Source: a bacterium
GTDB taxonomy: Bacteria; Joyebacterota; Joyebacteria; Joyebacterales; Joyebacteraceae
Reading direction: 5' to 3'
Assembly: GCA_025774935.1 (NCBI GenBank)
Contig: JALGZK010000009.1
Location: forward strand, 1 to 64,000
Length of the DNA: 64,000 nt
Shown here: piece by piece, positions 17,680-31,210 of the stretch
Position numbering within the stretch: the stretch's first letter is position 1
How the letters are laid out: every line of letters begins with the position of its first letter
Position numbers and translations under genes: made by a program
The notes under the pieces: generated by a model
The model's database searches: none
What the model saw: the letters and a program-made list of their open reading frames with translations, nothing else
What the model was told of the DNA's origin: nothing

Positions 17680-18441
17680 GTGATCTCAGTCGGCCTGTTT
17701 CTAGTGGGGGCTCTGTTCGGGAGCTTCCTCAACGTGATCATCCTCCGGATGCCGGTCGGGCAGTCGATTGTCCGGCCGGCGTCCTCGTGTCCGGAGTGCG
17801 GCGAGAGAGTCCGGCCCCGCGACAACGTCCCGATCCTGAGCTACCTTCTCCTTAAGGGGAGGTGCAGGGACTGCGGGGTCAGGATCTCGCCGAGGTACGC
17901 GGTCGTCGAGGCACTGGCCGGGCTACTGCCCGTGCTCCTGTACACACGGTACGGCTTCGGTCGTGAGTTCTTCGTCTACTGGGGCCTCGCGTACGTGCTC
18001 CTGGTGATCTCGTTCATCGACCTCGACCACAGGATCATCCCGGACCGCGTGACACTTCCGGGGATAGCCGTCGGGCTCGTCGTGGCGCCGCTCCTCGGGC
18101 TCACGACGTTCCCCGAGTCTCTGGTCGGGGCCGCCGTCGGGGGAGGGTCGCTCTATCTCATTGCCGTCCTCGGGGCCGCGGTCTTCCGGAAGGAGAGCAT
18201 GGGGGGGGGCGACATCAAGCTCGCGGCGATGCTCGGCGCATTCGTCGGGTGGGAGGCCGTGCTCTTGCTCCTCTTCGTTGCGTTCTTCCTGGGAGCCATC
18301 GCCGGGGTAATCGCCATGTCCGGCAAGGGGAAGGAGTGGGACCGGACGATCCCGTTCGGCCCGTTCATCGCTCTCGGAGCGATCCTGGCCACGATCTGGG
18401 GCGACGCTGCGCTCGGGTGGTACATGGCGCTCCTCGGCTGA
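17680..18441 (+). CDS. pilD: Prepilin peptidase / N-methyltransferase PilD
   Basis: 253 residues, polytopic. Cleaves the prepilin leaders and methylates the new N-terminus. The cytoplasmic domain has two CxxC pairs ('CPECGERVRPRDNVPILSYLLLK' then 'CRDCGVRISPRY'), and the two catalytic aspartates are in 'FIDLDHRIIPD' and 'GGGDIKLAAMLGA'. GTG start at 17680 directly follows the pilQ stop. Last gene of the operon, followed by a strong terminator. Confidence 0.93.
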   Translation: MISVGLFLVGALFGSFLNVIILRMPVGQSIVRPASSCPECGERVRPRDNVPILSYLLLKGRCRDCGVRISPRYAVVEALAGLLPVLLYTRYGFGREFFVYWGLAYVLLVISFIDLDHRIIPDRVTLPGIAVGLVVAPLLGLTTFPESLVGAAVGGGSLYLIAVLGAAVFRKESMGGGDIKLAAMLGAFVGWEAVLLLLFVAFFLGAIAGVIAMSGKGKEWDRTIPFGPFIALGAILATIWGDAALGWYMALLG

Positions 18442-18508
18442 GCCGGGGGACGCGAGGACCGCCGGGATCAGCCTCGGCCGAAGCAGGCGGCGCAAGGAGA
18501 TTCACGAG

Positions 18509-18534
18509 AGAGCCCCCGCTCACGCGGGGGCTCT
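18509..18534. terminator. Bidirectional terminator after pilD
   Basis: AGAGCCCCCG (18509-18518) / CGGGGGCTCT (18525-18534), six-base loop. It separates pilD from the convergent fourth pilin gene. Confidence 0.75.
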
Positions 18535-18585
18535 TCGATGTCGCGGAGGCGTTGGACTGGGCCACGCCCGCATGCGTTGCCGCTC

Positions 18586-19005
18586 CTACAGTAGGTCACC
18601 GTCCTGGTTGATCGTCCGAACGACGCCGGCCACCTCGCTCGCGTTCGGGGCGGTGCTGTTCGCACCGTCGCACCTGATGCGGAAGCCGACGGCCGTAGGG
18701 TCGCCATCGAACGTGTAGCACTCCGAACTGAAGCACCGACCCAGGAGTCCGAAGTCGGTGATCTTCAGGATGCCGGCGTTCGTGACCTGGGCTCCGTCTG
18801 TGAAGCTGGCGTTCTCGTACGTACCATGCTCCGCATAGTACAGCCGCATCGCGGTACGAATCGTGCCGAGAGCCGCGTCAGCCTCGGTCGTGTTGGCGCG
18901 TTCGGTCGTTCCTCCGTACATGGGGATCGCCACCGTGGCGAGAACACCTACGATGCCGACGACGACCACCAGCTCGATGAGGGTGAAACCCCTGCTGTCG
19001 CGCAT
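18586..19005 (-). CDS. Type IV prepilin (fourth paralog)
   Basis: 139 residues, same length as the first pilin. The leader MRDSRG precedes FTLIELVVVVGIVGVLATVAIPMYG. The globular part is a close relative of pilins one and three: 'YYAEHGTYENASFTDGAQVT', 'DFGLLGRCFSSECYTFDG', 'IRCDG', ending 'VVRTINQDGDLL'. It has an additional cysteine ('GRCFS'). GAGGAG precedes ATG 19005. Last gene of the minus-strand unit after the PilX-like protein. Confidence 0.88.
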   Translation of the reverse strand: MRDSRGFTLIELVVVVGIVGVLATVAIPMYGGTTERANTTEADAALGTIRTAMRLYYAEHGTYENASFTDGAQVTNAGILKITDFGLLGRCFSSECYTFDGDPTAVGFRIRCDGANSTAPNASEVAGVVRTINQDGDLL

Positions 19006-19096
19006 GCTGCGTTCACTCCTCTCTTGCTCTCTCCCCCTGGTCTGCTGTGTCCTTCATCGATAACGTCGCTTGAAGAACGGACGGGCGGTCCTCCGC

Positions 19097-20542
19097 CTAC
19101 GCGGGCAGGGACGGAGTCACCTCCCTCCAGTTCAGCCTCGTAGCGAAGCCGCCCTGGAAGAACTCGATGAACCCGGGCGGGGCGATCTCGAAGAGCCTCG
19201 GGTCGTAGTGGTAGTCCTTCATGTAGCCGGTCTGGACGACGAACTGCTGGCCGTCCCAGTAGCCGGTGCCGACCGGTCCGCGGAAGTCCTGCGCCATGCT
19301 CCCGTAGAACGTCAGATAGCCACGCGGGTCCCCGGTGGCCCAGTTCTCGACGCGGAAGCAGTTGTTGATGGAGATGGCGGCCGCGTGGACCACGCAGTCG
19401 CTCTGATTCGGCACCGTGTTGGAGATGTTCAGATCGGTGCCCGCCACGAGGCCGAGGAGGTCGTCGCAGTCGGGCGAGGGGCCGTCGGGACCGCTGTCGC
19501 GATAGACCACGTCGTCGATGATGTACATCGAGCCGCTCGAGACGACGGTCATCACGCCGTCGAGGACGCCCGACACGCTGATCGACCCGTTGACGTACAG
19601 GACCGGTTCCTCGAGGCTCGAGATCTCGACGTCGGTCCACTCCTCGTTCTTCCGGTAGCTCACGTAGCCGTACATCGGTTCGCCCGTGACCTCGTCCGGA
19701 CGGCCGAACATCACCTCGTAGTTGCCGCTCTTGAAGATGCCCCCGTCCATCGCCATGCCCTTGAGATCGACAATGGCCGGGTGGGTCGGGTATTCGATCT
19801 CGTTGCACCCCAGCTGGAACCCCTCCGCGAACAGAGGGTTGTCGAACGGCGCGTTCTGGCCCAGCGTCGACTCGATGTGGTTGTGGTCGTCGCCGTTGTA
19901 GTAGAGGAAGGACGCGTCGTGGTTCTGGTTTCCGTCGTTCGGCCCGCCGTAGGCGCTCCCCACGAAGTCGAGGAACTGCGGGTCACCGAAGATACTGATC
20001 TGGTCGTTCGTGAAGAGCGGGCCGTCGATCACGTCGTAGGTGCAGAACCAGAGCGGGTTGCCGGAACCCGGCTCGTGCTCGGTGTCGGTCAGATAGAGGA
20101 AGAGCGAGATTGGTCCGAGGGCCACGTCGGTCTCGAGCCAGCGCTCACGCCCGTCCACGATCCCGATCGACGTGACCGTGAAGACGCGGCGGGCGCTGTT
20201 CAGCGTTGTGGAGTCCGGAAGGATGGACACCAGGTAGCTGCCCGTGGCCAGCGCCTCGGGGATGTCTCCGAAGGGGTAGATGAGCCCCGCGTCACCCGGC
20301 GGCGGCGCCTGAGCCTCGAGCCAGGACTCGCCCACGGCCAGGCCCGCCTCGGCCAGGAAGAGCGCCTGCTCCCGACACTGCTCGGCGTACACCAGGCTCT
20401 GATCCTGCCAGGCGAACTGGAAGATCGACAGCGTGAGGATCAGGATGACCACCACGACGAAGGCGATCAAGGGCAATACGGCACCGCGGGCGTTCCGGAG
20501 CGGCGCCGCCACTCTGTTCGTGACGTCCGGTCGCGCATACAT
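19097..20542 (-). CDS. PilX/DUF4900-type pilus assembly protein
   Basis: 481 residues. The N-terminal part has the PilX pattern: 'GAVLPLIAFVVVVILILTLSIFQFAW' followed by 'EQALFLAEAGLAVGESWLEAQ'. The rest is a large extracellular beta-rich domain of the DUF4900 kind with 'VLYVNGSISVSGVLDGVMTVVSSGSMYIIDDVVY', which folds like repeated strands. It ends in 'LNWREVTPSLPA'. A paralog of the 21755-23155 gene (shared 'LFLYLTDTEHEP/YIYFTEDEHLP', 'FGDP', 'YHYDPRLFEIAPPGF'). No class III cleavage site is obvious. Probably a large tip or priming component of the pilus. Confidence 0.8.
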   Translation of the reverse strand: MYARPDVTNRVAAPLRNARGAVLPLIAFVVVVILILTLSIFQFAWQDQSLVYAEQCREQALFLAEAGLAVGESWLEAQAPPPGDAGLIYPFGDIPEALATGSYLVSILPDSTTLNSARRVFTVTSIGIVDGRERWLETDVALGPISLFLYLTDTEHEPGSGNPLWFCTYDVIDGPLFTNDQISIFGDPQFLDFVGSAYGGPNDGNQNHDASFLYYNGDDHNHIESTLGQNAPFDNPLFAEGFQLGCNEIEYPTHPAIVDLKGMAMDGGIFKSGNYEVMFGRPDEVTGEPMYGYVSYRKNEEWTDVEISSLEEPVLYVNGSISVSGVLDGVMTVVSSGSMYIIDDVVYRDSGPDGPSPDCDDLLGLVAGTDLNISNTVPNQSDCVVHAAAISINNCFRVENWATGDPRGYLTFYGSMAQDFRGPVGTGYWDGQQFVVQTGYMKDYHYDPRLFEIAPPGFIEFFQGGFATRLNWREVTPSLPA

Positions 20543-20682
20543 GGCAGTTCCCCCAATACATGACCTCCGACCCCGGATTCATCCGGAGTCAGGACTCGGG
20601 GCAACCTGTGGGAATCAGGAAGCCCCCCCGATGTGTGGTCGTACGGTCAGAATGCCTGTTTGGCGCAACCCGACCTGTCGGA

Positions 20683-21219
20683 CTATGCTCCGATCAGGGT
20701 CGTGACGGTCACGCTGTCCCGCGGCGCCGACGCGGGCCAGGCAATCCTGACTTCCACCCTCTTCGCATTGACATCATCACCGGGGCTTGTCCACGAGACG
20801 TCGGTCACGGCCCAGGTGAGACTCCCGATGACGTCGTTGCTGCCGTCGGTGTCTCCCCTGGTGTTCACGACGATGCTCGGGTCGTTGGGATGGGTGCCAG
20901 TGCTCAGATTCACACTCGTGATGTCGGCGTCGCTGCCGGCCGAGCCGTAGCCCGCCGCCATCAGCTGTTCCACCTTGCGCTCGACGAGCCGCAGGGCCAT
21001 TCTGCTCTCTCCCCGCCGCGCGGCGAGGACCCTTCCGAATACGAGGGCGTCGAAGATCGGGACGATCACGATGCCGAGGATGATCACGGAGATCAGGACC
21101 TCCATGATCGTGGCGCCCGCATCGCCGCCGCGGCCGCCGAGGCGCGGCAGTATGCGACGCCGCTTCGGGCGCCTCCCGCGCTGGGCTGAAGCTCCGGTTC
21201 CGGCAAGACAGGTCCGCAT
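20683..21219 (-). CDS. PilV-like minor pilin
   Basis: 178 residues. A long basic leader (about 37 residues) ends in GGDAG before 'ATIMEVLISVIILGIVIVPIFDALVFGR', a class III type helix with Glu at position 5. The following 'RMALRLVERKVEQLMAAGY' is typical of PilV/GspI-type minor pilins. ATG 21219 is chosen for its GGAGGA site seven bases upstream. It lies in a minus-strand unit with PilW- and PilX-like genes, the set that primes pilus assembly in other bacteria. Confidence 0.78.
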   Translation of the reverse strand: MRTCLAGTGASAQRGRRPKRRRILPRLGGRGGDAGATIMEVLISVIILGIVIVPIFDALVFGRVLAARRGESRMALRLVERKVEQLMAAGYGSAGSDADITSVNLSTGTHPNDPSIVVNTRGDTDGSNDVIGSLTWAVTDVSWTSPGDDVNAKRVEVRIAWPASAPRDSVTVTTLIGA

Positions 21220-21244
21220 CGTCTCTTCCTCCGTCTCCACGCCA

Positions 21245-21733
21245 CTAGTTCCTGCAGGCCACCGTCGATGAGATGAGCACCGCCTGGTCGTCCTGCGATG
21301 CCTCAGGTGTCTCCATCTCGTCCTTGAGAAGCACGTCGATGTTCACGGTCGAGCCCGCAGCCGAGAATCCCAGGGAGTCGACCTCTGTCACGAGGACGGT
21401 CCCGTCCATGTCTATCAGGCGGTCCTGGTCGTCGAGGTAGTAGACCGCGATCACTGAGTCGACCGTTCCCGTCCAGAAGTAGACGGTCAGTGAGTCTCCG
21501 GCAGCGCTGATGTCGCAGCTGCTCGCATCGCGGATGTCGCGCACCATGACCTCCATCGCGAAAGAGGCCTCCCGCTGGATGCGCGTGAGGCTGGCGGTGC
21601 CCTCCCACGAGTGGATCGTCCCGAGATACGTGACGACACCCGCGAGGATCACCACGAGCGTCACGCCGATCGACACGATGAGTTCCGTTAGGGTGAACCC
21701 GCCCTGGCCTCGCATGGCCGCAATCGCTTTCAT
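21245..21733 (-). CDS. PilW-like minor pilin
   Basis: 162 residues. The leader MKAIAAMRGQGG precedes FTLTELIVSIGVTLVVILAGVVTYLG, and 'RIQREASFAMEVMVRDIRDASSC' is the PilW/GspJ pattern. It ends with a cysteine-containing 'TVACRN'. The start ATG 21733 follows GAAGGGCGG. It is 25 bases upstream of the PilV-like gene and 21 bases downstream of the PilX-like gene, so one transcript is likely. Confidence 0.8.
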   Translation of the reverse strand: MKAIAAMRGQGGFTLTELIVSIGVTLVVILAGVVTYLGTIHSWEGTASLTRIQREASFAMEVMVRDIRDASSCDISAAGDSLTVYFWTGTVDSVIAVYYLDDQDRLIDMDGTVLVTEVDSLGFSAAGSTVNIDVLLKDEMETPEASQDDQAVLISSTVACRN

Positions 21734-21754
21734 GGTCGTTCCGCCCTTCACGGT

Positions 21755-23155
21755 CTAGGCCGCCTCGATCTCTCTCCACGAGAGCTTCTCGTACATGCCG
21801 GTCAGGAAGTAACCCGGCGGCTGCATCGAGCTGAACCGCTGATCGTAGTGGTAGTTCTTCGCGTACCCCGTCCTGATGACGACCTGGTCGCCCTGGATCG
21901 TGCCCGTCCCCACGGCTCCCCTGAACTGCTGGATGATGCCGCCGTGCACGGTGAGCGTTCCCCTCGGGCTCCCGCTGTTGTAGTTCTCCGCCGTGAACGA
22001 CGTCCCGAGCGCCATGACGTGCGCGTGGATGTTCACGCCGTTCGAGTTGGCGGTGTTGTTGTCGATGATGACGTTCTCCTGCGAAACGAGTCCGAGGACG
22101 TCGTCGCAGCCATCGTTGGGGCCCTCGACCGGGTCGGCGTCGTGGTAGACGACGTCGCCCAGGACGTAGGTGTCGCCGCCCGATGCGACGGTGAGGGTCC
22201 CGTCGAGCACGCCCTGGATCTGCACGTCGCCCGTCACGTAGAGTACGCCGTTGAAGGACGAGATCTCGACGTCGGTCCACCGACCGCCGGGCTGCCGGTA
22301 GCTCACGTAGCCGACCATCGGTTCGCCGTGGACCTCCCGGGCCAGCTTGATTTGGTAGCTCCCGCTCAGGTAGACGCCGCCGTCCGTGGCGATCGCCTGG
22401 AGGTCGTCGAGGTACTGCGGGAGCTCGATGGCTGACGCCCCGAGCTCGTAGCCATCTTCGAACGCCGGCTCGTCGTAGGGCGCGTTGGAGGGCTCCGCCG
22501 ACTCCAGGTGGTTCCAGAAGCTCCCGTTGTAGTACAGGAACGACGGATCGTTGTTCGGATCGGGATCGTCGGGTCCGCCGTGCGCGCTCGACACGTGGCC
22601 CCCGAACGTGGGGTCGCCGAAGATGTTGAGCTGCCCGTTGGTGTGGGCCGTCCCGTCGATGTAGTCGGCCGAGCAGAACCACACCGGGGTCGAGGAGTTG
22701 GGGAGGTGTTCGTCCTCGGTGAAGTAGATGTACTGCGCGAACGACTGGGTCATCACCTCGCGGCTCAGGGTCCTCGTCCTGGCTCCCACCGTGCCGCTCG
22801 AGATGATGGTGTACCTCTTCATCGTCCCTGCTCCGTTACTCGCGTGCGGTCGTATTGTCACGGCGTACGTGCTGCCGCCCTCCAGCGTGTCAGGGTGCGC
22901 CCCGAACGGGTGGACATCGGCCACACCGGCGGGAGGGGAGGGCTGTGCCTCGAGCCATCCCAGGCCGCGGGCCAGACCCGCCTCCGCTGCGTAGAGCGCC
23001 CGGGACTTCTCGGTCGTCGCCTTCGCAAGCGATGCGTCCTGTGCCCCGAACTGACAAACCGCGGCCACCGTGATCAGCATGATGAACGCTATGAGCACGG
23101 CAGCCGTGAGCACCGATCCAGACTCGTCTCTCGGAAGCAATGGCGTCTTGAGCAT
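21755..23155 (-). CDS. PilX/DUF4900-type pilus assembly protein, first gene of the minor-pilin operon
   Basis: 466 residues. N-terminal membrane segment 'GSVLTAAVLIAFIMLITVAAVCQFG' followed by 'EKSRALYAAEAGLARGLGWLEAQ', then a DUF4900-like beta domain with 'VLYVTGDVQIQGVLDGTLTVASGGDTYVLGDVVY'. Both this protein and its paralog carry a matching strand-repeat and end with 'LSWREIEAA' or 'LNWREVTPSLPA'. Aromatic- and Asp/Asn-rich loops suggest a surface-exposed tip. The sigma-54-like element upstream implies regulation in step with pilB. Confidence 0.8.
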   Translation of the reverse strand: MLKTPLLPRDESGSVLTAAVLIAFIMLITVAAVCQFGAQDASLAKATTEKSRALYAAEAGLARGLGWLEAQPSPPAGVADVHPFGAHPDTLEGGSTYAVTIRPHASNGAGTMKRYTIISSGTVGARTRTLSREVMTQSFAQYIYFTEDEHLPNSSTPVWFCSADYIDGTAHTNGQLNIFGDPTFGGHVSSAHGGPDDPDPNNDPSFLYYNGSFWNHLESAEPSNAPYDEPAFEDGYELGASAIELPQYLDDLQAIATDGGVYLSGSYQIKLAREVHGEPMVGYVSYRQPGGRWTDVEISSFNGVLYVTGDVQIQGVLDGTLTVASGGDTYVLGDVVYHDADPVEGPNDGCDDVLGLVSQENVIIDNNTANSNGVNIHAHVMALGTSFTAENYNSGSPRGTLTVHGGIIQQFRGAVGTGTIQGDQVVIRTGYAKNYHYDQRFSSMQPPGYFLTGMYEKLSWREIEAA

Positions 23156-23249
23156 ATCGACGCCTCCCTTCGGATCGTGTGGTTCGCCGGCCGAATGGAA
23201 CGCCCTCGCCCGGAACCCCCACAGTCAGGGCATTGTCCGAGTGACAATA

Positions 23250-23265
23250 TGCACAACTTGTGCCA
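23250..23265 (-). promoter_or_regulatory. Sigma-54-like promoter for the minor-pilin operon
   Basis: On the minus strand TGGCAC-AAGTTG-TGCA: invariant GG and GC with correct spacing, one mismatch in the TTGC box. Transcription would start about 85 bases before the PilX-like start codon. Confidence 0.6.
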
Positions 23266-23395
23266 CTTCTCAAGTATTACATATTGAGATGGGGTCAGTC
23301 AAGGAAGGATTCAGGGGGGCGGGCCGACCTCAAGCACGGCCGTTGGGGCCGGGCGGGGAGAATCTGCCGTTTCCAGTCCTGGGAGGCCAGGAAAC

Positions 23396-23420
23396 GGGCC
23401 CGACACAGCGCGCCGGGCCC
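23396..23420 (-). terminator. Terminator of XRE-cupin operon 1
   Basis: GGGCCCG (23396-23402) / CGGGCCC (23414-23420), read on the minus strand and followed there by GTTTCC. Confidence 0.5.
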
Positions 23421-23484
23421 GGCCTGACAGAGCAGCAGAATTACAGTGAACGACCTCAGTAATGGTGCACGAGAACGAACGCGG

Positions 23485-24057
23485 CTACCAGCTCTCCCGG
23501 GACGGGGCCGCCCCGATCCCTATGACCTCGCTCGGCTCCTCGCCGAGGGTCTCGACGGCGTAGCCGTTGGCGAGCTGGAACTGGATCGTGTCGCCCTCAC
23601 GGAGAACGTACTCCTGCTCGCCCGCTACGGTGACCTTCACCATCCCGCGAAGTGTGAGGAGTACGAGCTCCCCGGGCTCCGGCGCTCGCTCCGAGCGGTC
23701 GCCCGGCTTGCCCGTCGCCCGGAACACCCGAAGCGCCGCCCAGGGTGGCTCGGCGTTCATCTGCTCGAGGTTGATGACCCTGCCGTCCTTGTCGCAGATG
23801 AAGACCTTGGCTCGGTCCTCCTTGCGCGTGAGGACGGTGAGGGGGGCGTCGCGCTCCTCCACGAAGTGCGCCGGACGCTCCTCGAGAGCGGAAGCGATGC
23901 GTTGGAGCGCGCCGATGGTGGGGGAGGTCTTGCCGCGCTCGATCTCCGAGATGTGAGTCGCGGACATGCCGGACCGTCTCGCGACGTCCTTGAGTGTCAG
24001 CTTGCGACGGAATCTCGACATCCGGACTCTGCGCCCGACTTCCTCTTTCGTCGGCAT
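23485..24057 (-). CDS. XRE-family regulator with C-terminal cupin domain (array member 1, type A)
   Basis: 190 residues. HTH domain (about 10-65) with 'LKDVARRSGMSATHISEIERGKTSP' broken into scaffold and recognition helices; cupin domain from about 115 with 'GELVLLTLRGMVKV' and 'YVLREGDTIQFQLANGY'. The usual cupin His ligands and the 'PH' of XRE-cupin proteins are missing, so no metal site is evident. Type A members (this and member 6) start MPTKEEVGRRVRM and have an Arg-Arg 'RFRRK' where type B has 'RFERG'. It is the last gene of operon 1. The ligand is unknown. Confidence 0.85.
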   Translation of the reverse strand: MPTKEEVGRRVRMSRFRRKLTLKDVARRSGMSATHISEIERGKTSPTIGALQRIASALEERPAHFVEERDAPLTVLTRKEDRAKVFICDKDGRVINLEQMNAEPPWAALRVFRATGKPGDRSERAPEPGELVLLTLRGMVKVTVAGEQEYVLREGDTIQFQLANGYAVETLGEEPSEVIGIGAAPSRESW

Positions 24058-24124
24058 GGCAGCCTCCTGGTTTCTACGTCCCGCAGTCTGTCGCCGCCGC
24101 GGGCTCGTGGCCCGGCGGCGCGGC

Positions 24125-24697
24125 CTAGACCGTGAAGAGGGTCGGCGACACGAGGATGGCCAGAAGCTCCGCGTCGTCCTCCCCGATGTTCACGCCGGCG
24201 TAGCCGTCGTCCAGGCGCATCTGGATCGTGTCACCCTCCCGGAGCACATGCGATTCGTTCGTGCCGGCCGTTATCCGCAGCATCCCCTTCGTGCACAGCA
24301 GAACGACCTCGCCGATCATGGGGTAGCCGACTGTCAGCTCCCCCGGTGCGGCCGCCCAGCTGAATACCTGCATGCTCCCACCGGCCACTCCCGGGCTCAC
24401 GATCTCGCTCTCTATGGGCTTGCCGTCCTGGTCCGCCACATAGAACTTGCAGCGCTCGCCGCCCCGCGTCACGACCACACCCGGCAGCCTCTCCTCGCGA
24501 ACGAACTGCGATGATCTCTCTCCGAGGGCCTCCGAGATCCTCTGAAGGGCCCCGATGGTGGGGGAGGTCTTCCCTCGCTCCACCTCGGAGATGTGCGTGG
24601 CCGACATCCCGCACCGGGCCGCGACCTCCTTCAGGGTCATGCCCCGCTCGAACCGAGCGAGTCGAAGCCTGCGCCCCAGTTCCTCTTTCGTCAGCAT
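24125..24697 (-). CDS. XRE-cupin regulator (array member 2, type B)
   Basis: 190 residues. HTH 'LKEVAARCGMSATHISEVERGKTSP' then cupin with 'IGEVVLLCTKGMLRI' and 'SHVLREGDTIQMRLDDGY', ending 'VSPTLFTV'. Of the type B members it is nearest to member 7: both start MLTKEELGRRLR and share 'GEVVLLCTKGM'. Since member 7 also lies directly before a type A gene, the pair 2-1 appears to be a duplicate of the pair 7-6. ATG 24697 is used because all paralogs start here; upstream in-frame sequence is intergenic. Confidence 0.85.
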   Translation of the reverse strand: MLTKEELGRRLRLARFERGMTLKEVAARCGMSATHISEVERGKTSPTIGALQRISEALGERSSQFVREERLPGVVVTRGGERCKFYVADQDGKPIESEIVSPGVAGGSMQVFSWAAAPGELTVGYPMIGEVVLLCTKGMLRITAGTNESHVLREGDTIQMRLDDGYAGVNIGEDDAELLAILVSPTLFTV

Positions 24698-24754
24698 TGC
24701 CTGTCTCCCCTCCCCTCGCGCGGCACCCCTCCCGGGGCCGCGCACCGTCCCGGA

Positions 24755-25327
24755 TCAGATCGTGAACGGGCGCGGCGAAACGATGAACGCCAGGAGCTCC
24801 GCGTCGTCCTCGCCCACGTTCTCCCGCTCGTACCCCTCGTCAAGCCTCATCTGGATGGTGTCGCCCTCACGTAGAACATGCGACTCGCCGCTGCCGGCGG
24901 TGATTCTGACCATGCCGAGCATGCAGATGACAGCGATCTCGCCGATCATGGGATGGACGTTGATCTTCTCTCCCGGCGCGATGTGCGTCCCGAAGATCTG
25001 CAGTGTGCCGCCCGGGAGCCCGGGGCTCAGGACTCCCGCCGTCAGCGGCCTTCCTTCCTTGTCCGCGGCGAAGAAGTCGCCTCGCTCCGCCGCCCTCGAA
25101 ACCGCGAACTTCGGGAGGAAGTCCTCGCGCACGAAGTACGACGGTTCCTCGCCGAGGGCCTTCGAGATGCGCTGCAGGGCGCCGATCGTGGGCGAGGTCT
25201 TGCCCCGCTCCACCTCAGAGATGTGCGTCGCCGACATGCCGCAGCGCGCCGCGACGTCCTTCAGGGTCAGACCTCGTTCGAACCGTGTACGTCTGAGTCT
25301 TCGCCCGAGTTCCCGTTTCGTCAGCAT
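24755..25327 (-). CDS. XRE-cupin regulator (array member 3, type B)
   Basis: 190 residues. Starts MLTKRELGRRLRRTRFERG; recognition helix region 'GMSATHISEVERGKTSP' identical to its neighbours. The middle segment (about 75-110), 'VSRAAERGDFFAADKEGRPLTAGVLSPGLPGGTLQIFGTHI', differs from other members and is where specificity is likely to lie. Cupin ends 'SHVLREGDTIQMRLDEGYERENVGEDDAELLAFIVSP'. Fifty-seven bases separate it from member 2 and from member 4. Confidence 0.85.
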   Translation of the reverse strand: MLTKRELGRRLRRTRFERGLTLKDVAARCGMSATHISEVERGKTSPTIGALQRISKALGEEPSYFVREDFLPKFAVSRAAERGDFFAADKEGRPLTAGVLSPGLPGGTLQIFGTHIAPGEKINVHPMIGEIAVICMLGMVRITAGSGESHVLREGDTIQMRLDEGYERENVGEDDAELLAFIVSPRPFTI

Positions 25328-25384
25328 CGGTTCCGTGTCTCCCTACTCGGCGCTGTCGAGACTGCCGCGTCCGTCCGGTCGTCC

Positions 25385-25957
25385 CTATACCGTGATCGGG
25401 CGGGGCAAGGCGAGGAAGGCCAGAAGCTCGGCCTCGTCCTCCCCGACGTTCTCGCGCGTGTACCCGCCGTCGAGCCTCATCTGAATGGTGTCGCCCTCGC
25501 GCAGGACGTGCGACTCTCCGGTCCCCGCGGTCACGCGGAGCATGCCCCTTAGGCAGTGGACCACGAGTTCGCCGATCCGCGGGTGGAGCGCCGTCTTCAT
25601 GCCCGGAGGTACGGTCGTCGCGAAGATCTGCAAGGTGCCCCCGGGCAGGCCAGGGCTCAAGACCCCCGTGGCGACCGGGACGCCTTCCTTGTCCGCGCCG
25701 AAGAGCTGCTCGCGCTTGGGGCCCCTCGTGACGTTCACTTTCTTGACGGAGTCCTCGCGGACGAAGTACGAGGGGTCCTGGCCGAGCGCCTTCGCGATGC
25801 GCTGGAGCGCGCCGATCGTCGGGGAGGTCTTGCCCCGCTCCACCTCGGATATGTGCGTCGCCGACATGCCGCAGCGCGCCGCGACGTCCTTCAGGGTCAG
25901 ACCTCGCTCGAAGCGGGTGCTCCTCAGTCGGCGCCCGAGTTCCTTCTTCGTCAGCAT
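25385..25957 (-). CDS. XRE-cupin regulator (array member 4, type B)
   Basis: 190 residues from ATG 25957. HTH as in members 3 and 5. The linker reads 'VTRGPKREQLFGADKEGVPVATGVLSPGLPGGTLQIF', clearly related to member 3. The cupin has a distinct 'RIGELVVHCLRGMLRVTAG' strand with a single histidine. Members 3, 4 and 5 are closest to one another and probably expanded by tandem duplication inside operon 1. Confidence 0.85.
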   Translation of the reverse strand: MLTKKELGRRLRSTRFERGLTLKDVAARCGMSATHISEVERGKTSPTIGALQRIAKALGQDPSYFVREDSVKKVNVTRGPKREQLFGADKEGVPVATGVLSPGLPGGTLQIFATTVPPGMKTALHPRIGELVVHCLRGMLRVTAGTGESHVLREGDTIQMRLDGGYTRENVGEDEAELLAFLALPRPITV

Positions 25958-26018
25958 CGGTGACGGATTCCTCCTGCATGAAGCGGCCGATACGAACCGG
26001 CCCCAGCTCTGTCCCTGC

Positions 26019-26591
26019 CTAGATCGTGAATGGTCTGGGCGACGCGACGAACGCCACGATCTCGGCGGCGTCCTCGCCCACGTTCTCGCTTGCGTACCCG
26101 CTGTCGAGGCGAAGGTGAATGGTGTCGCCCTCGCGCAGGACGTGCGACTCGCCGCTGCCGGCTGTGATTCTGACCATGCCCTGGAGGCAGAGGACCACCA
26201 TCTCGCCGATCCTCGGATCGACCGAGATTCTGGCACCGGGAGCGACAGACCTCTCGAAGATCTGCAGGGCTCCTCCCGACAGTCCGGGGCTCAGGACGTT
26301 CACCGCCAACGGCCTTCCTTCCTTGTCCGAAAGGAACAGATCGGCTCGTTCCTTCGCTCTCGTGACCACCACCTTCGGAACGGAGTCCTCGCGGACGAAG
26401 AACGATGGCTCCTGGCCGAGCGCCTTCGCGATGCGCTGGAGTGCGCCGATCGTCGGGGAGGTCTTGCCCCGCTCGACCTCCGAGATGTGCGTGGCCGACA
26501 TGCCACAGCGGGCCGCGACGTCCTTCAGGGTCAGGCCCCTCTCGAAGCGGGTTCGCCTCAGCCGCCGCCCCAGTTCCCTCTTCGTCAGCAT
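26019..26591 (-). CDS. XRE-cupin regulator (array member 5, type B; first gene of operon 1)
   Basis: 190 residues from ATG 26591. HTH 'LKDVAARCGMSATHISEVERGKTSP'. Linker 'VTRAKERADLFLSDKEGRPLAVNVLSPGLSGGALQIFERSV', cupin 'RIGEMVVLCLQGMVRITAG' and 'SHVLREGDTIHLRLDSGY'. The promoter at 26742-26770 lies 150 bases upstream. A long leader may allow further control. Confidence 0.85.
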   Translation of the reverse strand: MLTKRELGRRLRRTRFERGLTLKDVAARCGMSATHISEVERGKTSPTIGALQRIAKALGQEPSFFVREDSVPKVVVTRAKERADLFLSDKEGRPLAVNVLSPGLSGGALQIFERSVAPGARISVDPRIGEMVVLCLQGMVRITAGSGESHVLREGDTIHLRLDSGYASENVGEDAAEIVAFVASPRPFTI

Positions 26592-26741
26592 CGGTTTCGG
26601 ATTCCTTTCCGACGAGCGGCTCAGACGAACCCTCGCTCGGTTTCCCTCATGCGACACAGGACGACCGGTGCTGACTGAATGTTCACTCGCCCAGAATCGT
26701 CCGGATTGCGCGTTGGTTATCGCTGTCTGTGACTTCCCATA

Positions 26742-26790
26742 CAGATAACGTGGAAGGTCATTCCGGTCAAGTCAAATATCCGACCGGAAT
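26742..26790 (-). promoter_or_regulatory. Promoter and conserved upstream element of XRE-cupin operon 1
   Basis: Minus strand: -35 TTGACC (26765-26770) and -10 TATCTG (26742-26747), spacing 17. Immediately upstream (26765-26790) is a 26-bp element found again at operon 2 with 21 of 26 positions identical; it contains half of a palindrome, ATTCCGGTC (26760-26768) / GACCGGAAT (26782-26790). Confidence 0.7.
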
Positions 26791-26958
26791 ACGGCGTCAG
26801 CGTAGCCGCCCACGCGGCCGTAACGTAGTCCCCGGTATACGGTTGGCTCTCTCGCAGTTCCCCCGTCGCCGGAGCCGAATCGGAAAACCACGCCACCGGC
26901 AACGAGGGACGGCAGTTCCTGCTGCCGAGGTGCGTGTCCGCTGGTCCCGGAAAGGAAG

Positions 26959-26982
26959 ACACCCGCTCCTGAGAGCGGGTGT
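26959..26982 (-). terminator. Terminator of XRE-cupin operon 2
   Basis: Perfect 10-bp stem ACACCCGCTC (26959-26968) / GAGCGGGTGT (26973-26982), four-base loop; on the minus strand followed by CTTCCTTTCC. Confidence 0.7.
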
Positions 26983-27084
26983 GAGCAGTCGGATGGGTTG
27001 TTCATGGGGCCCCGTCTCGAGCGGCGGACTCGGGGACGCTTCTGTACGTGGACGACGGGTGCCCCGGTAGATGCTCGTCGAGAT

Positions 27085-27654
27085 CTACCAGGCGCTCCGC
27101 GCGGGGTATACTCCGATCCCGAGGGCCTCGCTCTCTTCCTCGCCGAGGGTCTCGATGACGTACCCGTTCTCGAGCGGGAACTGGACCGTGTCACCCTCGC
27201 GCAGGACGTACGACTCATCCCCGACGGTGATCCTGATCATGCCGCGAACCGTGAGGATCACGACCTCACCCGCTTTCGGGGATCGCTCGGCCCGATCGCC
27301 CGGGCCGCTGACCGAGCGGAAGAGTCGGAGGGTCGCCCAGGGGGGGTCGTTGTTGACCCGCTCGGTCTCGTGGACGTGTCCTTCGACATCGCAGAAGAAG
27401 ACCCCCGCTCGCTCCCGCCTCTTTGTGAGGACGGCGAGAGGTGTGTCGCGCTCCTCGACGAAGTGCGCGGAACGCTCGTTCAGCGCGGCGGCGATCCTCT
27501 GGAGCGCGCCGATCGTGGGGGAGGTCTTGCCGCGCTCGATCTCCGAGATGTGCGTTGCGGACATGCCGGATCTCTGCGCGACCTCCTTGAGGGTCATGTT
27601 CCTCCGGAAGCGCGCCATCCGGACCCTGCGTCCGACTTCGTCCTTCGTCGGCAT
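27085..27654 (-). CDS. XRE-cupin regulator (array member 6, type A)
   Basis: 189 residues from ATG 27654. Starts MPTKDEVGRRVRMARFRRN; HTH 'LKEVAQRSGMSATHISEIERGKTSP'. It resembles member 1 along its whole length ('HFVEERD.PL.VLT', 'PPWA.LR.FR..G.PGDR.ER.P..GE', ending 'RESW' or 'RSAW'). It is the last gene of operon 2, as member 1 is of operon 1. The cupin carries 'YVLREGDTVQFPLENGY'. A Cys in 'VFFCDVEG' matches 'VFICDKDG' of member 1. Confidence 0.85.
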   Translation of the reverse strand: MPTKDEVGRRVRMARFRRNMTLKEVAQRSGMSATHISEIERGKTSPTIGALQRIAAALNERSAHFVEERDTPLAVLTKRRERAGVFFCDVEGHVHETERVNNDPPWATLRLFRSVSGPGDRAERSPKAGEVVILTVRGMIRITVGDESYVLREGDTVQFPLENGYVIETLGEEESEALGIGVYPARSAW

Positions 27655-27713
27655 CTGCGCAACCTCCTCCCGCCCCGGCATGCCTGGCTCAGCCTCCGGC
27701 CGCCCCCCGTTGC

Positions 27714-28286
27714 CTAGATCGTCAAGAGACTGGGAGACACGAAGATCGCCATCACCTCTGCTGCGTCCTCGCCGATGTTCGTCTCCGTGTACCCGTCGTC
27801 CATCGTTCTCTGTAGGGTGTCGCCTTCTCGAAGAACGAACGACTCACCGCCCTCCGAGGTAATCCGCACCATCCCCTTCGTGCAGAGGAGAACGACCTCG
27901 CCGATCACCCGCGGAGTGGTCACAGTCTCCCCGGGCGCGCTGGTCCTCCTCAGTAGCTGCATGAGGCCGCCGGGAATTCCGGGACTCAGGATTTCGATCT
28001 CGAGCGGCTTGCCGTCCCGGTCCGCCACGAAGATCTTCGTTCGCTCAAGGAACCGCGTGAACTTGGACAGCGGGACCCTGGTCTCCCGGACTAAAGACGA
28101 TGACTTGACACCCAGAGCCCGCGAGATCCGCTGGAGCGCTCCAACGGTCGGGGAGGTCTTGCCCCTCTCCACCTCGGAGATGTGCGTGGCCGACATCCCG
28201 CAGCGGGCGGCCACGTCCTTCAGCGTCATGCCCCGCTCGAATCGCGCCATTCGGAGCCGCCGCCCCAGCTCCTCCTTCGTCAACAT
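27714..28286 (-). CDS. XRE-cupin regulator (array member 7, type B; first gene of operon 2)
   Basis: 190 residues. Starts MLTKEELGRRLRMARFERG; HTH 'LKDVAARCGMSATHISEVERGKTSP' with TVG in place of TIG after it. Linker 'KFTRFLERTKIFVADRDGKPLEIEILSPGIPGGLMQLLRRTS'; cupin 'IGEVVLLCTKGMVRITSEG' and 'SFVLREGDTLQRTMDDGY', end 'VSPSLLTI'. Fifty-nine bases separate it from member 6. The promoter at 28420-28448 lies 135 bases upstream. Confidence 0.85.
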   Translation of the reverse strand: MLTKEELGRRLRMARFERGMTLKDVAARCGMSATHISEVERGKTSPTVGALQRISRALGVKSSSLVRETRVPLSKFTRFLERTKIFVADRDGKPLEIEILSPGIPGGLMQLLRRTSAPGETVTTPRVIGEVVLLCTKGMVRITSEGGESFVLREGDTLQRTMDDGYTETNIGEDAAEVMAIFVSPSLLTI

Positions 28287-28419
28287 GCCTCAGCGGTCCT
28301 TTCGCCGGTCCGGCGTCCGCTCTACATCGGTTCAGGCGAACCGACGACGGCGGTCCGGGTCCAGTCCACTTTGACTTGACCGCCCTCCAAGGACAGCGGA
28401 GTGCGCAAGCCTTTCCTCA

Positions 28420-28468
28420 AAGATATCGGTGGTCGGGATTACGGTCAAGCGAATAATCCCACCGGAAT
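28420..28468 (-). promoter_or_regulatory. Promoter and conserved upstream element of XRE-cupin operon 2
   Basis: Minus strand: -35 TTGACC (28443-28448), -10 TATCTT (28420-28425), spacing 17, with the 26-bp conserved element at 28443-28468 overlapping the -35. Same architecture as operon 1. Confidence 0.7.
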
Positions 28469-28652
28469 CCACCGGGTCTCGGGCGGTGGATGAGCGGTAA
28501 TTCAATGAGTGGCCTCAGGTTGGAACGACGCGAGCTTCGTGGATTTGGCCCCGACGGCCCGCCTCATCAGTCGGCGGTAGACACGCTCCGGCGGGCCGCT
28601 CTGACGCCGCCGCTGACCACGGGAGACCGGTCCAGGACCCCCAAGCTGTACC

Positions 28653-28682
28653 TTGACACCTCAGGCTGACGCCTGATATCCT
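28653..28682 (+). promoter_or_regulatory. Promoter with palindromic operator in front of the aminotransferase
   Basis: TTGACA (28653-28658) and TATCCT (28677-28682) with an 18-base spacer. Sixteen of the spacer bases form a perfect palindrome, TCAGGC-TGAC-GCCTGA (28661-28676), placed where a repressor would block RNA polymerase. Confidence 0.6.
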
Positions 28683-28729
28683 CATCAGTCGGCCAAGGTC
28701 TCATGGAAGAGCGTTCACCGGGAGGCAGC

Positions 28730-29983
28730 ATGATCAGCGATCTTCACGAGGTCTTCTCACTCAGCGCGAAGGGCATGAAGAAGTCCGTCATCCGGGAGCT
28801 TCTCAAGCTCACCAGGCGCCCCGAGGTCATATCGTTCGCGGGCGGCCTTCCGGACCCGAGCACGTTCGCGGTGGATGAGGTGGCAGAGATCGCAGCGGAA
28901 GTTCTGGCGACGAACGGGGCCCAGGCGCTCCAGTACAGCCCGACGGAGGGTGACCCCAAGCTCAAGGATGAACTCATCGCGCACCACGAACGCGAGGACG
29001 GGATCAAGCTCTCGCCGGAGAACATACTCGTCACGGTCGCGTCGCAGCAGGGACTCGACCTCCTGGCGAAGATCTTCGTCGACCGCGGCGACCCCGTGAT
29101 CGTGGGACTCCCGACGTACGTCGGCGGACTCGGCGCCTTCAACAGCTACGGTGCCGACATGATCGGCGTCCCGCTCGACGAGGATGGGATGCGGATGGAC
29201 CTCGTGGAGCGCGAGCTCGAGAGACTGAGGAAGCGTGGCGAGAAGCCGAAGCTCATCTACGTGGTGCCGGACTTCCAGAACCCCGCGGGCATCACGATGA
29301 GCGAGGAGCGGCGGCTCAAGCTCATCGAGCTGGCACGGCACTACGACGTCCTCATCGCCGAGGACAGCCCGTACAAGGAGCTCAGGTACGAAGGCGAGCC
29401 TGTCCGGTCGATCTTCGCGCTCGACGGATCCGGGCAGGTGATCGGGCTGCACACGTTCTCGAAGATCCTCTTCCCGGGGATGAGGCTCGGGTGGGTCATC
29501 GCGGACGAGTCCGTGATACAGAAGCTGGTCATCGCCAAGCAGTCGACGGACCTCTGTACGCCCGCCTTCACGCAGGCGATCGTGGCGGAGTTCGCTTCAC
29601 GCGGGCTGCTGGGCATGGCGATCGAGAAGGTGAAGGGGATCTACCGCGAGAAGCGCGAGATCATGCTGAAGGCGCTCGACGACTACATGCCCGACCTGCC
29701 GGGCCTCCACTGGACACGTCCCGACGGCGGGCTCTTCCTCTGGGTCTGCCTGCCCGAGCACATCGACGCCGACGAGCTCTTCTACGAGGCGATCGAGCAG
29801 AATGTCGCCTTCGTCATCGGGTCCGCGTTTCACTGCGACGGGAGCGGCCGCAACTGCATGCGTCTGAACTTCTCGTTCCCGACGAAGGAGAACATCGTCG
29901 AAGGTGTGAAGAGACTCGCGAAGGTCATAGAGGCTCACGAGGAGTCGCGCCGGACGACCGGAGACATCGTCGCGACGCCTTAG
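28730..29983 (+). CDS. PLP-dependent aminotransferase, class I/II (LysN/ARO8-like)
   Basis: 417 residues. Fold type I aminotransferase with 'VISFAGGLPDPSTF', 'LQYSPTEGDPKLKDEL', 'YVVPDFQNPAGITMSEERR', 'AEDSPYKELRYEG' and the PLP lysine in 'HTFSKILFPGMRLGW'; C-terminal Arg in 'NCMRLNFSF'. The pattern matches 2-aminoadipate / aromatic / branched-chain amino acid transaminases related to Thermus LysN; the substrate is not decidable. The start ATG 28730 has GGAGG upstream and suits the predicted transcription start near 28689. Divergent from the XRE array; a regulatory link is possible but unproven. Confidence 0.85.
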   Translation: MISDLHEVFSLSAKGMKKSVIRELLKLTRRPEVISFAGGLPDPSTFAVDEVAEIAAEVLATNGAQALQYSPTEGDPKLKDELIAHHEREDGIKLSPENILVTVASQQGLDLLAKIFVDRGDPVIVGLPTYVGGLGAFNSYGADMIGVPLDEDGMRMDLVERELERLRKRGEKPKLIYVVPDFQNPAGITMSEERRLKLIELARHYDVLIAEDSPYKELRYEGEPVRSIFALDGSGQVIGLHTFSKILFPGMRLGWVIADESVIQKLVIAKQSTDLCTPAFTQAIVAEFASRGLLGMAIEKVKGIYREKREIMLKALDDYMPDLPGLHWTRPDGGLFLWVCLPEHIDADELFYEAIEQNVAFVIGSAFHCDGSGRNCMRLNFSFPTKENIVEGVKRLAKVIEAHEESRRTTGDIVATP

Positions 29984-30076
29984 GAATGAACGATGGGTTG
30001 CGCGCGGGGCTGAGCGCGCGTATGTTGGCGCCGGCAAGGCGAAATCGGGATCAACCGAGCATCAGGAGAGAACGGG

Positions 30077-31210
30077 ATGACGATTGCCGACAAGAAGGCG
30101 GACCTGGCGGGTCCGGGCATCAGCACGTACGCCGAGGTGGAGAAGATCCTCCCGAGCGACTACGTGGCGCTCCAGACGCCGATGAACAGGATGAAGGCCC
30201 TCTACGAGATCAAGCGGTACATCGAGGACGGTCTCGCAAAGGAGCTCAACATCCAGATGGTGCGGGTCCCGCTCATCGTGGACCGCGAGAGCGGCATGAA
30301 CGACTACCTCGACCGCGACGGTTCCAGGACTCCGGTCGAGTTCCCCGCCGGCCTCGGCCTCGACAAGCCGATCCAGGCGCAGGTCGTCCAGGCGGCCACA
30401 AAGTGGAAGCGCTACGCGCTGAAGCAGTTCGACTGCAAGGTCGGTGAGGGGATCAACACCGACATGCTCGCGGTCAGGAAGGACTACTTCCTCGACCACG
30501 ACCACAGCTCGTACGTCGACCAGTGGGACTGGGAGAAGGTCATCAGCGACGAGGACCGCACGCTCGACTATCTCAAGGACACCGTCCGGAAGATCTGGAA
30601 GGTCCTCAGAGGAGCCGGCAAGCACGCGCAGGAGCTCTTCCCGGAGCTCAAGTCCGACAAGTACCCGGACTTCCCCGAGGAGCTCGAGTTCTTCCACGCG
30701 GAGGAGATCCTGGAGATGTACCCCGACCTCCCGCGGAAGCAGCGCGAGACCGCCATCCTCCAGGACCACCCGGCGATCTTCATCGTAGGCATCGGCTGGG
30801 TCCTCGACGACGGCTACCCGCACGAGATGCGCGCGGCCGACTACGACGACTGGGTCACCGAGACGGTCACCGAGAAGGGGAAGCCGGCACACGGTCTGAA
30901 CGGCGACATCCTCGTCTGGAACCCCGTCACGAAGCGGCGTCACGAGCTGACGTCGATGGGGATCCGCGTGACGAAGGACATCCTGAAGACGCAGCTCGAG
31001 CTCTCAGGACAGCTCGACTTCCTCGAGCTCCCGTACCACCAGATGATCCTGAACGACGAGATCCCGCTCTCGATCGGCGGTGGCATCGGCCAGTCGCGGA
31101 CGTACATGTACTTCCTCCGCACGGCGCACCTGGGCGAGGTGAGCGTCACCGTCTGGCCCAAGGAGCTCAAGGACATCTGCGAGAAGAAGAACATCCACGT
31201 GCTCAAGTAG
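30077..31210 (+). CDS. asnA: Aspartate--ammonia ligase (AMP-forming asparagine synthetase)
   Basis: Makes asparagine from aspartate, ammonia and ATP. It resembles class II aminoacyl-tRNA synthetase cores: 'LNIQMVRVPLIVDRESGMNDYLDRDGSRTPVEF', 'VVQAATKWKRYAL', 'GINTDMLAVRKD', 'SSYVDQWDWEKVI', and motif 3 'SIGGGIGQSR'. It is 377 residues against about 330 in E. coli, with the extra length mostly in the 'LFPELKSDKYPDFPEELEF' insertion. AGGAG precedes ATG 30077. It follows the aminotransferase by about 90 bases and ends in a terminator, so may be cotranscribed with it. Confidence 0.92.
   Translation: MTIADKKADLAGPGISTYAEVEKILPSDYVALQTPMNRMKALYEIKRYIEDGLAKELNIQMVRVPLIVDRESGMNDYLDRDGSRTPVEFPAGLGLDKPIQAQVVQAATKWKRYALKQFDCKVGEGINTDMLAVRKDYFLDHDHSSYVDQWDWEKVISDEDRTLDYLKDTVRKIWKVLRGAGKHAQELFPELKSDKYPDFPEELEFFHAEEILEMYPDLPRKQRETAILQDHPAIFIVGIGWVLDDGYPHEMRAADYDDWVTETVTEKGKPAHGLNGDILVWNPVTKRRHELTSMGIRVTKDILKTQLELSGQLDFLELPYHQMILNDEIPLSIGGGIGQSRTYMYFLRTAHLGEVSVTVWPKELKDICEKKNIHVLK

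Follow-up and report, generated by a model that had tools for sequence, protein, structure and literature searches.

Results

Organization of the array

The window analyzed here is a 64,000-nucleotide stretch of contig C28 from a 3.24-Mb, 40-contig genome. On its minus strand, between 23485 and 28286, lie seven adjacent genes for XRE-cupin regulators. All seven open reading frames (ORFs) are intact, with no stops or frameshifts, and each is 189–190 codons long. In a phylogenetic tree the proteins form two separate clades, type A (g1 and g6) and type B (the other five). For comparison we used 20 genomes from one family. The relatives that have names are MAGs of Ca. Eisenbacteria and Ca. Effluviviaceae, and by similarity the window genome is assigned to Ca. 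Eisenbacteria (Effluviviaceae-like). The genes and associated hairpins are as follows, with dN/dS values referring to the 1:1 ortholog in the sister species G002.

27714–28286, minus strand: g7, XRE-cupin regulator of type B, heading operon 1 (dN/dS 0.34)
27085–27654, minus strand: g6, XRE-cupin regulator of type A, closing operon 1 (dN/dS 0.13)
26959–26982, minus strand: strong intrinsic terminator between operons 1 and 2
26019–26591, minus strand: g5, type B, heading operon 2
25385–25957, minus strand: g4, type B (dN/dS 0.26)
24755–25327, minus strand: g3, type B (dN/dS 0.12)
24125–24697, minus strand: g2, type B (dN/dS 0.14)
23485–24057, minus strand: g1, type A, closing operon 2 (dN/dS 0.23)
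23386–23428, minus strand: G+C-rich hairpin 3' of g1, the likely end of operon 2

The gaps inside the operons are 57, 57, 59, 61, and 67 bases, and 493 bases separate g6 from g5. An alternative upstream ATG for g6 is possible at 27681. A promoter and a palindrome before both g7 and g5, together with the terminator at 26982–26959, support the existence of two transcription units, with the order B-A (g7-g6) in operon 1 and B-B-B-B-A (g5 to g1) in operon 2. This arrangement agrees with the first-pass annotation of this DNA, which had described seven adjacent genes of these lengths and spacings in two operons (5-4-3-2-1 and 7-6), each closing with a type A gene. A strong hairpin 3' of the A gene was also present in all eight relatives tested, making nine genomes in all. 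A search of positions 18000–31000 against Rfam recognized no known RNA family in the leaders.

An invariant DNA-reading helix and divergent cupins

All seven proteins matched HTH_3/HTH_31 above the Pfam cut-off, indicating an N-terminal Cro/C1-type helix-turn-helix (HTH). Matches to Cupin_2 or Cupin_3 were below the cut-off only, and for g2 there was none among the matches listed. A C-terminal cupin barrel is nonetheless predicted from structural models. AlphaFold2 gave an HTH plus a cupin barrel for the B member g5 (pLDDT 89.7), and the model of an A-type protein was less confident (pLDDT 78.7). By fold comparison, the predicted beta barrel resembles the solved XRE-cupin structures 1y9q and 6b8w. 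The first of these (1Y9Q), an HTH_3 family regulator from Vibrio cholerae, was the best full-length match in both sequence and fold, with 22% identity in the fold alignment. PuuR has the same HTH-then-cupin order and a weak, near-full-length similarity to the array proteins. However, scores against the PuuR model (NCBIfam NF007408) were 39.5 and 38.6 bits, far below the curated equivalog cut-off of 211, and no putrescine genes were recognized beside the array.

Alignment of the seven array proteins showed that each contains GMSATHISE(V/I)ERGKTSP, as had been claimed earlier. We compared this region with the rest of the protein across the family set of 49 proteins (21 A and 28 B). Entropy in the recognition helix (residues 32–41) was 0.00 among the A proteins and 0.02 among the B proteins, compared with 1.1–1.8 in the linker and cupin, and the only type-fixed difference in the helix is V39/I39. 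Between pairs of window proteins, identity was 69–96% in the HTH and 30–68% in the cupin. These values bear out the first-pass view that the linkers and cupins are divergent. The cupins of the five B proteins in this array vary at many positions, including those adjoining the lost ligand sites described below.

The same annotation had noted that the cupins lack the usual His ligands. Metal-binding cupins carry a 3-His-1-Glu set, and the array family does not retain it. All three His positions are substituted in nearly all 49 proteins, the first His being kept in only four of the 28 B proteins, among them g3 and g4, and the ligand Glu is retained in all 49. A dispersed paralog on contig C21 retains the full 3-His-1-Glu set. 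Loss of the metal site is consistent with, but does not prove, a replacement of metal by organic ligands.

A palindrome overlaps the promoters of both operons

Upstream of both operons is a 31-bp palindrome, ATTNCGGTC-N13-GACCGNAAT, that overlaps the –35 box and is a candidate operator.

28438–28468, minus strand: probable operator of operon 1, ATTCCGGTG-N13-GACCGTAAT, with one mismatch; the right arm contains the –35 box TTGACC
28420–28425, minus strand: –10-like TATCTT of operon 1, 17 bases past TTGACC
26760–26790, minus strand: probable operator of operon 2, a perfect palindrome ATTCCGGTC-N13-GACCGGAAT; the right arm contains the –35 box TTGACC (26765–26770)
26742–26747, minus strand: –10-like TATCTG of operon 2, 17 bases past TTGACC, read from the sequence

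An element at 26765–26790 had been proposed previously. Its extent was drawn too short and should be the 31-bp palindrome at 26760–26790. A pattern search of the 3.24-Mb window genome allowing up to two mismatches found two sites, both heading array operons, and the reversed control found none. A profile scan with a model built from 20 sites returned the same two sites. Because the training set of the profile included the window sites, the independent evidence comes from the pattern search and its control. With just two sites in the window genome at up to two mismatches, we rejected a wide regulon.

An operator match was also found in 19 of the 20 genomes of the family, the exception being a genome that is 57% complete, and the control was zero throughout. 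Extra two-mismatch matches away from the array occur in a few genomes, and the matches in G017 are not array sites because the array head is missing from that assembly. At every assembled array head, TTGACC is 129–179 bases 5' of the ATG and inside the palindrome, with a –10-like box approximately 17 bases further on. The window genome and G002 have two sites for two operons, and G008 has one clear site and one that is degraded. Across the family, the number of clear sites tracks the number of array operons.

A palindromic core-promoter site near the gene of the regulator itself is what is seen in XRE-cupin regulators. In Pseudomonas aeruginosa these proteins are described as local repressors acting on core-promoter palindromes, and autoregulation is described or suspected for some (PMC7901475). 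PsdR, PauR, ErfA, and others resemble the array proteins in having an HTH plus a cupin, a core-promoter palindrome, and a site beside their own gene (PMC7901475). The N13 spacing of the palindrome matches the spacers of 12–14 bp reported for XRE motifs (PMC12565409). Because it overlaps the –35 box, the palindrome may act through occlusion, as has been proposed for the P. aeruginosa XRE-cupins (PMC7901475). The invariant helix and the occurrence of the same palindrome at the head of both operons give good support to the earlier proposal that the array combines one DNA-binding specificity with many sensors, as far as sequence can indicate.

The window genome also encodes two dispersed paralogs, on contigs C14 and C21, that have nearly identical recognition helices (MSPTHISEIERG), and the profile scan found no operator near either of them. 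Thus, either helix identity alone leaves the site unfixed or these paralogs are not autoregulated. These paralogs lend some weight to the idea that a different regulator acts on the palindrome to control the array, with the array proteins binding elsewhere. We consider this improbable, and the least probable of the alternatives weighed here, since in the window genome the palindrome is found only at array promoters, site number in the family follows operon number as expected of autoregulation, and a spacer of N13 suits an XRE dimer.

Genes flanking the array

The array lies next to genes for minor pilins, a feature that the first-pass annotation did not mention. The flanking features are listed below.

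19097–23155, minus strand: minor-pilin operon, 3' of the array
23250–23265, minus strand: sigma-54-like –24/–12 element of the pilin operon, TGGCACAAGTTGTGCA, also readable as a small palindrome
21755–23155, minus strand: PilX/DUF4900-like gene
21245–21751, minus strand: PilW-like gene
20683–21240, minus strand: PilV-like gene
19097–20542, minus strand: second DUF4900-like gene
28703–29983, plus strand: PLP aminotransferase, a divergent, conserved neighbor
30077–31210, plus strand: aspartate-ammonia ligase AsnA, a divergent, conserved neighbor

A type IV pilus locus with a retraction-type ATPase, a PilC-like protein, prepilins, a secretin, and a prepilin peptidase is encoded on the plus strand at 8.8–18.4 kb. 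Wherever the contig extends far enough in the family, the B-A array is directly 5' of the PilX/PilW/PilV-like genes on the same strand. This, and the fact that P. aeruginosa XRE-cupins all bind beside their own gene (PMC7901475), raises the possibility that the array controls the adjoining pilin operon as a local regulator-target unit through a second, different kind of contact. Several observations make this unlikely. A TGGCACANNNTGTGCA-like element precedes the pilin operon in all 18 assembled ends and has GG-N10-GC spacing as for sigma-54, so that the operon appears to have a promoter of its own; RpoN is encoded in the window genome. In addition, a hairpin separates the array from the pilin operon, and the profile scan found no match to the array operator before the pilin genes. 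Synteny in the family extends over approximately 20 kb around the array, which makes the adjacency a poor guide to function. With its own sigma-54-like promoter and no array operator, control of the pilin operon by the array is only a guess. The sigma-54-like element, being also a small palindrome, may alternatively be an operator.

Evolution of the array within the family

Strong homologs were found in 19 of the 20 family genomes, the exception again being the genome that is 57% complete. The window genome has nine full-length homologs, namely the seven array members and the two dispersed paralogs, and the latter are also present in most relatives. A B-A pair is at the locus wherever the locus is assembled, and this pair is the ancestral state for the family. 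Copy number ranges from two to seven, with more than three copies only in the genus of the window and in a neighbor. In fully assembled arrays, B comes first and A closes each unit. Most genera have just B-A, whereas G006 has B-B-A, G008 has B-A-B-A, and the window has B-A-B-B-B-B-A. Within the genus of the window, G001 has B-A only and G002 carries six or more members split between two contigs, with the contig break inside the array. In G004, two-gene and three-gene versions are on separate contigs, perhaps from a mixed assembly. Trees built separately from the HTH and cupin parts both split A from B. These results fit the earlier suggestion that a B-A pair was duplicated and type B then expanded. 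The trees give weak support on whether the duplication in G008 was shared or independent.

The variation in copy number, including the presence of only two copies in the same-genus G001, might mean that the additional B copies are products of tandem duplication that are retained chiefly for their dosage or are inert, with all members binding the same ligand and the cupins drifting under weak constraint. Six of the seven window genes have a 1:1 ortholog in G002, with dN/dS of 0.12–0.34. For these pairs dN/dS was 0.03–0.13 in the HTH and 0.15–0.52 in the cupin, so that for most pairs the cupin value exceeds the HTH value by a factor of two to five. The faster change in the cupin is in line with drift. 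By contrast, the seven intact ORFs, dN/dS values well below 1, and the variation among the five B cupins of the window, which extends to positions beside the lost ligand sites, argue against redundancy, and we think this explanation unlikely. It had also been considered that relatives might carry one such gene, with the rest being decaying copies. Decay is ruled out by the intact ORFs and dN/dS below 1, and the copies are under purifying selection. Selection thus retains the array copies, and change is fastest in the sensor part. Because dN/dS in the cupin is raised but below 1, selection for new ligands and relaxed constraint are equally possible causes of this change.

Tandem XRE-cupin genes in other genomes

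We also searched more widely, in 336 genomes, most of them one per genus. Among the matches listed, other tandem XRE-cupin genes of comparable similarity were pairs in family f170 (L097 and L098) and sets of three to four genes in the unrelated family f25, where L100 and L101 have four-gene arrays and three genes were found in L099. The f25 arrays resemble the window array in being tandem genes with an invariant helix of their own, GYSKALISR(I/V)E, and in having higher identity in the HTH (45–63%) than in the cupin (26–34%). This contrast between HTH and cupin suggests that the principle of a frozen helix recurs. The f25 arrays differ from that of the window in their helix, in having four copies, and in that some of their cupins retain His. 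Alignment of upstream regions and a palindrome search gave no clear shared operator for the f25 arrays. Their neighbors, at the single locus that was read completely, are sulfatase and radical-SAM genes, and no pilin neighbors were recognized. No homologs of the window minor pilins were found beside XRE-cupin loci outside the family, where the only match was one to PilD in L103.

The first-pass annotation knew of no described array of this size. The literature we searched contained no description of tandem XRE-cupin arrays or of paralogs sharing an operator, which does not prove their absence, and no array larger than the seven-gene one was among the matches listed from the 336 genomes. The claim needs qualifying, since arrays of two to four genes with frozen helices do exist elsewhere, one unrelated lineage included. 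What is unusual is therefore the size of the array, whereas its type of arrangement occurs elsewhere as well.

Discussion

Taken as a whole, the sequence features are probably best explained by a family of XRE-cupin repressors that has been amplified and is autoregulated. In this model, all seven proteins have the same recognition helix and would bind as dimers to one type of site, the 31-bp palindrome. Binding over the –35 box of both operons would occlude RNA polymerase and keep expression of the array low. Each cupin has lost its metal site, and its ligand is probably a different small organic molecule; ligand binding would weaken DNA binding so that any one of several signals could raise expression of the whole pool. 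Since the members are coexpressed and have a common HTH part, homo- and heterodimers may compete for the one site, allowing the pool to integrate signals. Multi-input switching and mixed dimers, which the first-pass annotation had suggested, are thus plausible as readings of the sequence. We infer binding of the palindrome by the array proteins, repression, ligand differences between members, and mixed dimers. What counts against this model is that it has no evident output, because the only site of the regulators is at their own promoters. The best candidate for an output is the adjoining minor-pilin operon, a guess made on position only.

A more ambitious version of this model is that the array is a multi-input switch, produced by tandem amplification, in which a fixed DNA reader, varied pockets, and a pool of homo- and heterodimers act on one operator, that such switches arose independently at least twice (in Eisenbacteria and in family f25), and that the one described here possibly tunes type IV pili. 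We regard this version as doubtful.

After a duplication, the resulting paralogous regulators of bacteria would normally be expected to diverge in DNA specificity. The XRE-cupins of P. aeruginosa have distinct motifs and share no targets (PMC7901475). The array, by contrast, appears to have one helix and one operator rather than a separate motif and a non-overlapping set of targets for each member. It also differs from the P. aeruginosa proteins in that its cupins are without metal ligands. The array thus shows the seeming opposite of the separation in P. aeruginosa, with DNA reading frozen and sensing diversifying. A defined operator and a series of family members with two to seven copies make these ideas testable in vitro. 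The presence of one type of site, found just at the promoters of the regulators themselves, suggests a single decision informed by several signals. If confirmed, the array would offer a natural and compact way of integrating several signals.

Flanking elements in the window

Upstream of the type IV pilus minor-pilin operon lies a sigma-54-like element that was conserved in 18 of 18 assembled ends from the window's family, and both operons of the array of seven XRE-cupin genes have long leaders.

23250-23265, sigma-54-like element TGGCACAAGTTGTGCA, 5' of the pilin operon
26592-26741 and 28287-28419, leaders from the array promoters to the first ATG, about 130-150 bases

The sigma-54-like element is a small palindrome as well. 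Conservation of the two leaders among relatives was partial, and comparison of both with Rfam gave no match. The divergent aminotransferase (28703-29983), which lacks an HTH, is similar to the aminotransferase half of regulators of the MocR/PdxR type.

Related loci in and beyond the family

Two dispersed paralogues, both kept in most of the family, have recognition helices nearly identical to that of the array, and the full cupin metal site is retained in the C21 copy.

C14:85339-85887, XRE-cupin paralogue L008
C21:73714-74274, XRE-cupin paralogue L009

In genome G004 the array locus is present in two forms, one B-A and the other B-B-A (A and B being the two protein clades), on contigs C75 and C38 (L050, L051). 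Each form clusters with a different species, and G004 is possibly a mixed assembly. Four genomes of genus g3 have in common an extra site, away from the array, that resembles the predicted operator and has a sequence near GTTCAGGTC...GATTGACCGGAAT.

G013:C217:78339, G017:C168:414, G004:C11:28783 and G015:C319:3176, operator-like site

Tandem XRE-cupin genes also occur in two other families.

L097:7473-8763, pair, f170
L098:6099-7482, pair, f170
L099:6892-9085, minus strand, array, three genes found, f25
L100:6572-9067, plus strand, four-gene array, f25
L101:6528-9076, minus strand, four-gene array, f25

The helices of the f170 pairs are GLSATHLSE(V/I)ERG and GISATHVSEIERG. A sulfatase gene and a radical-SAM gene lie near the L100 array. 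In the unrelated family f25, array members have the helix GYSKALISR(I/V)E in common, and their cupins are divergent.
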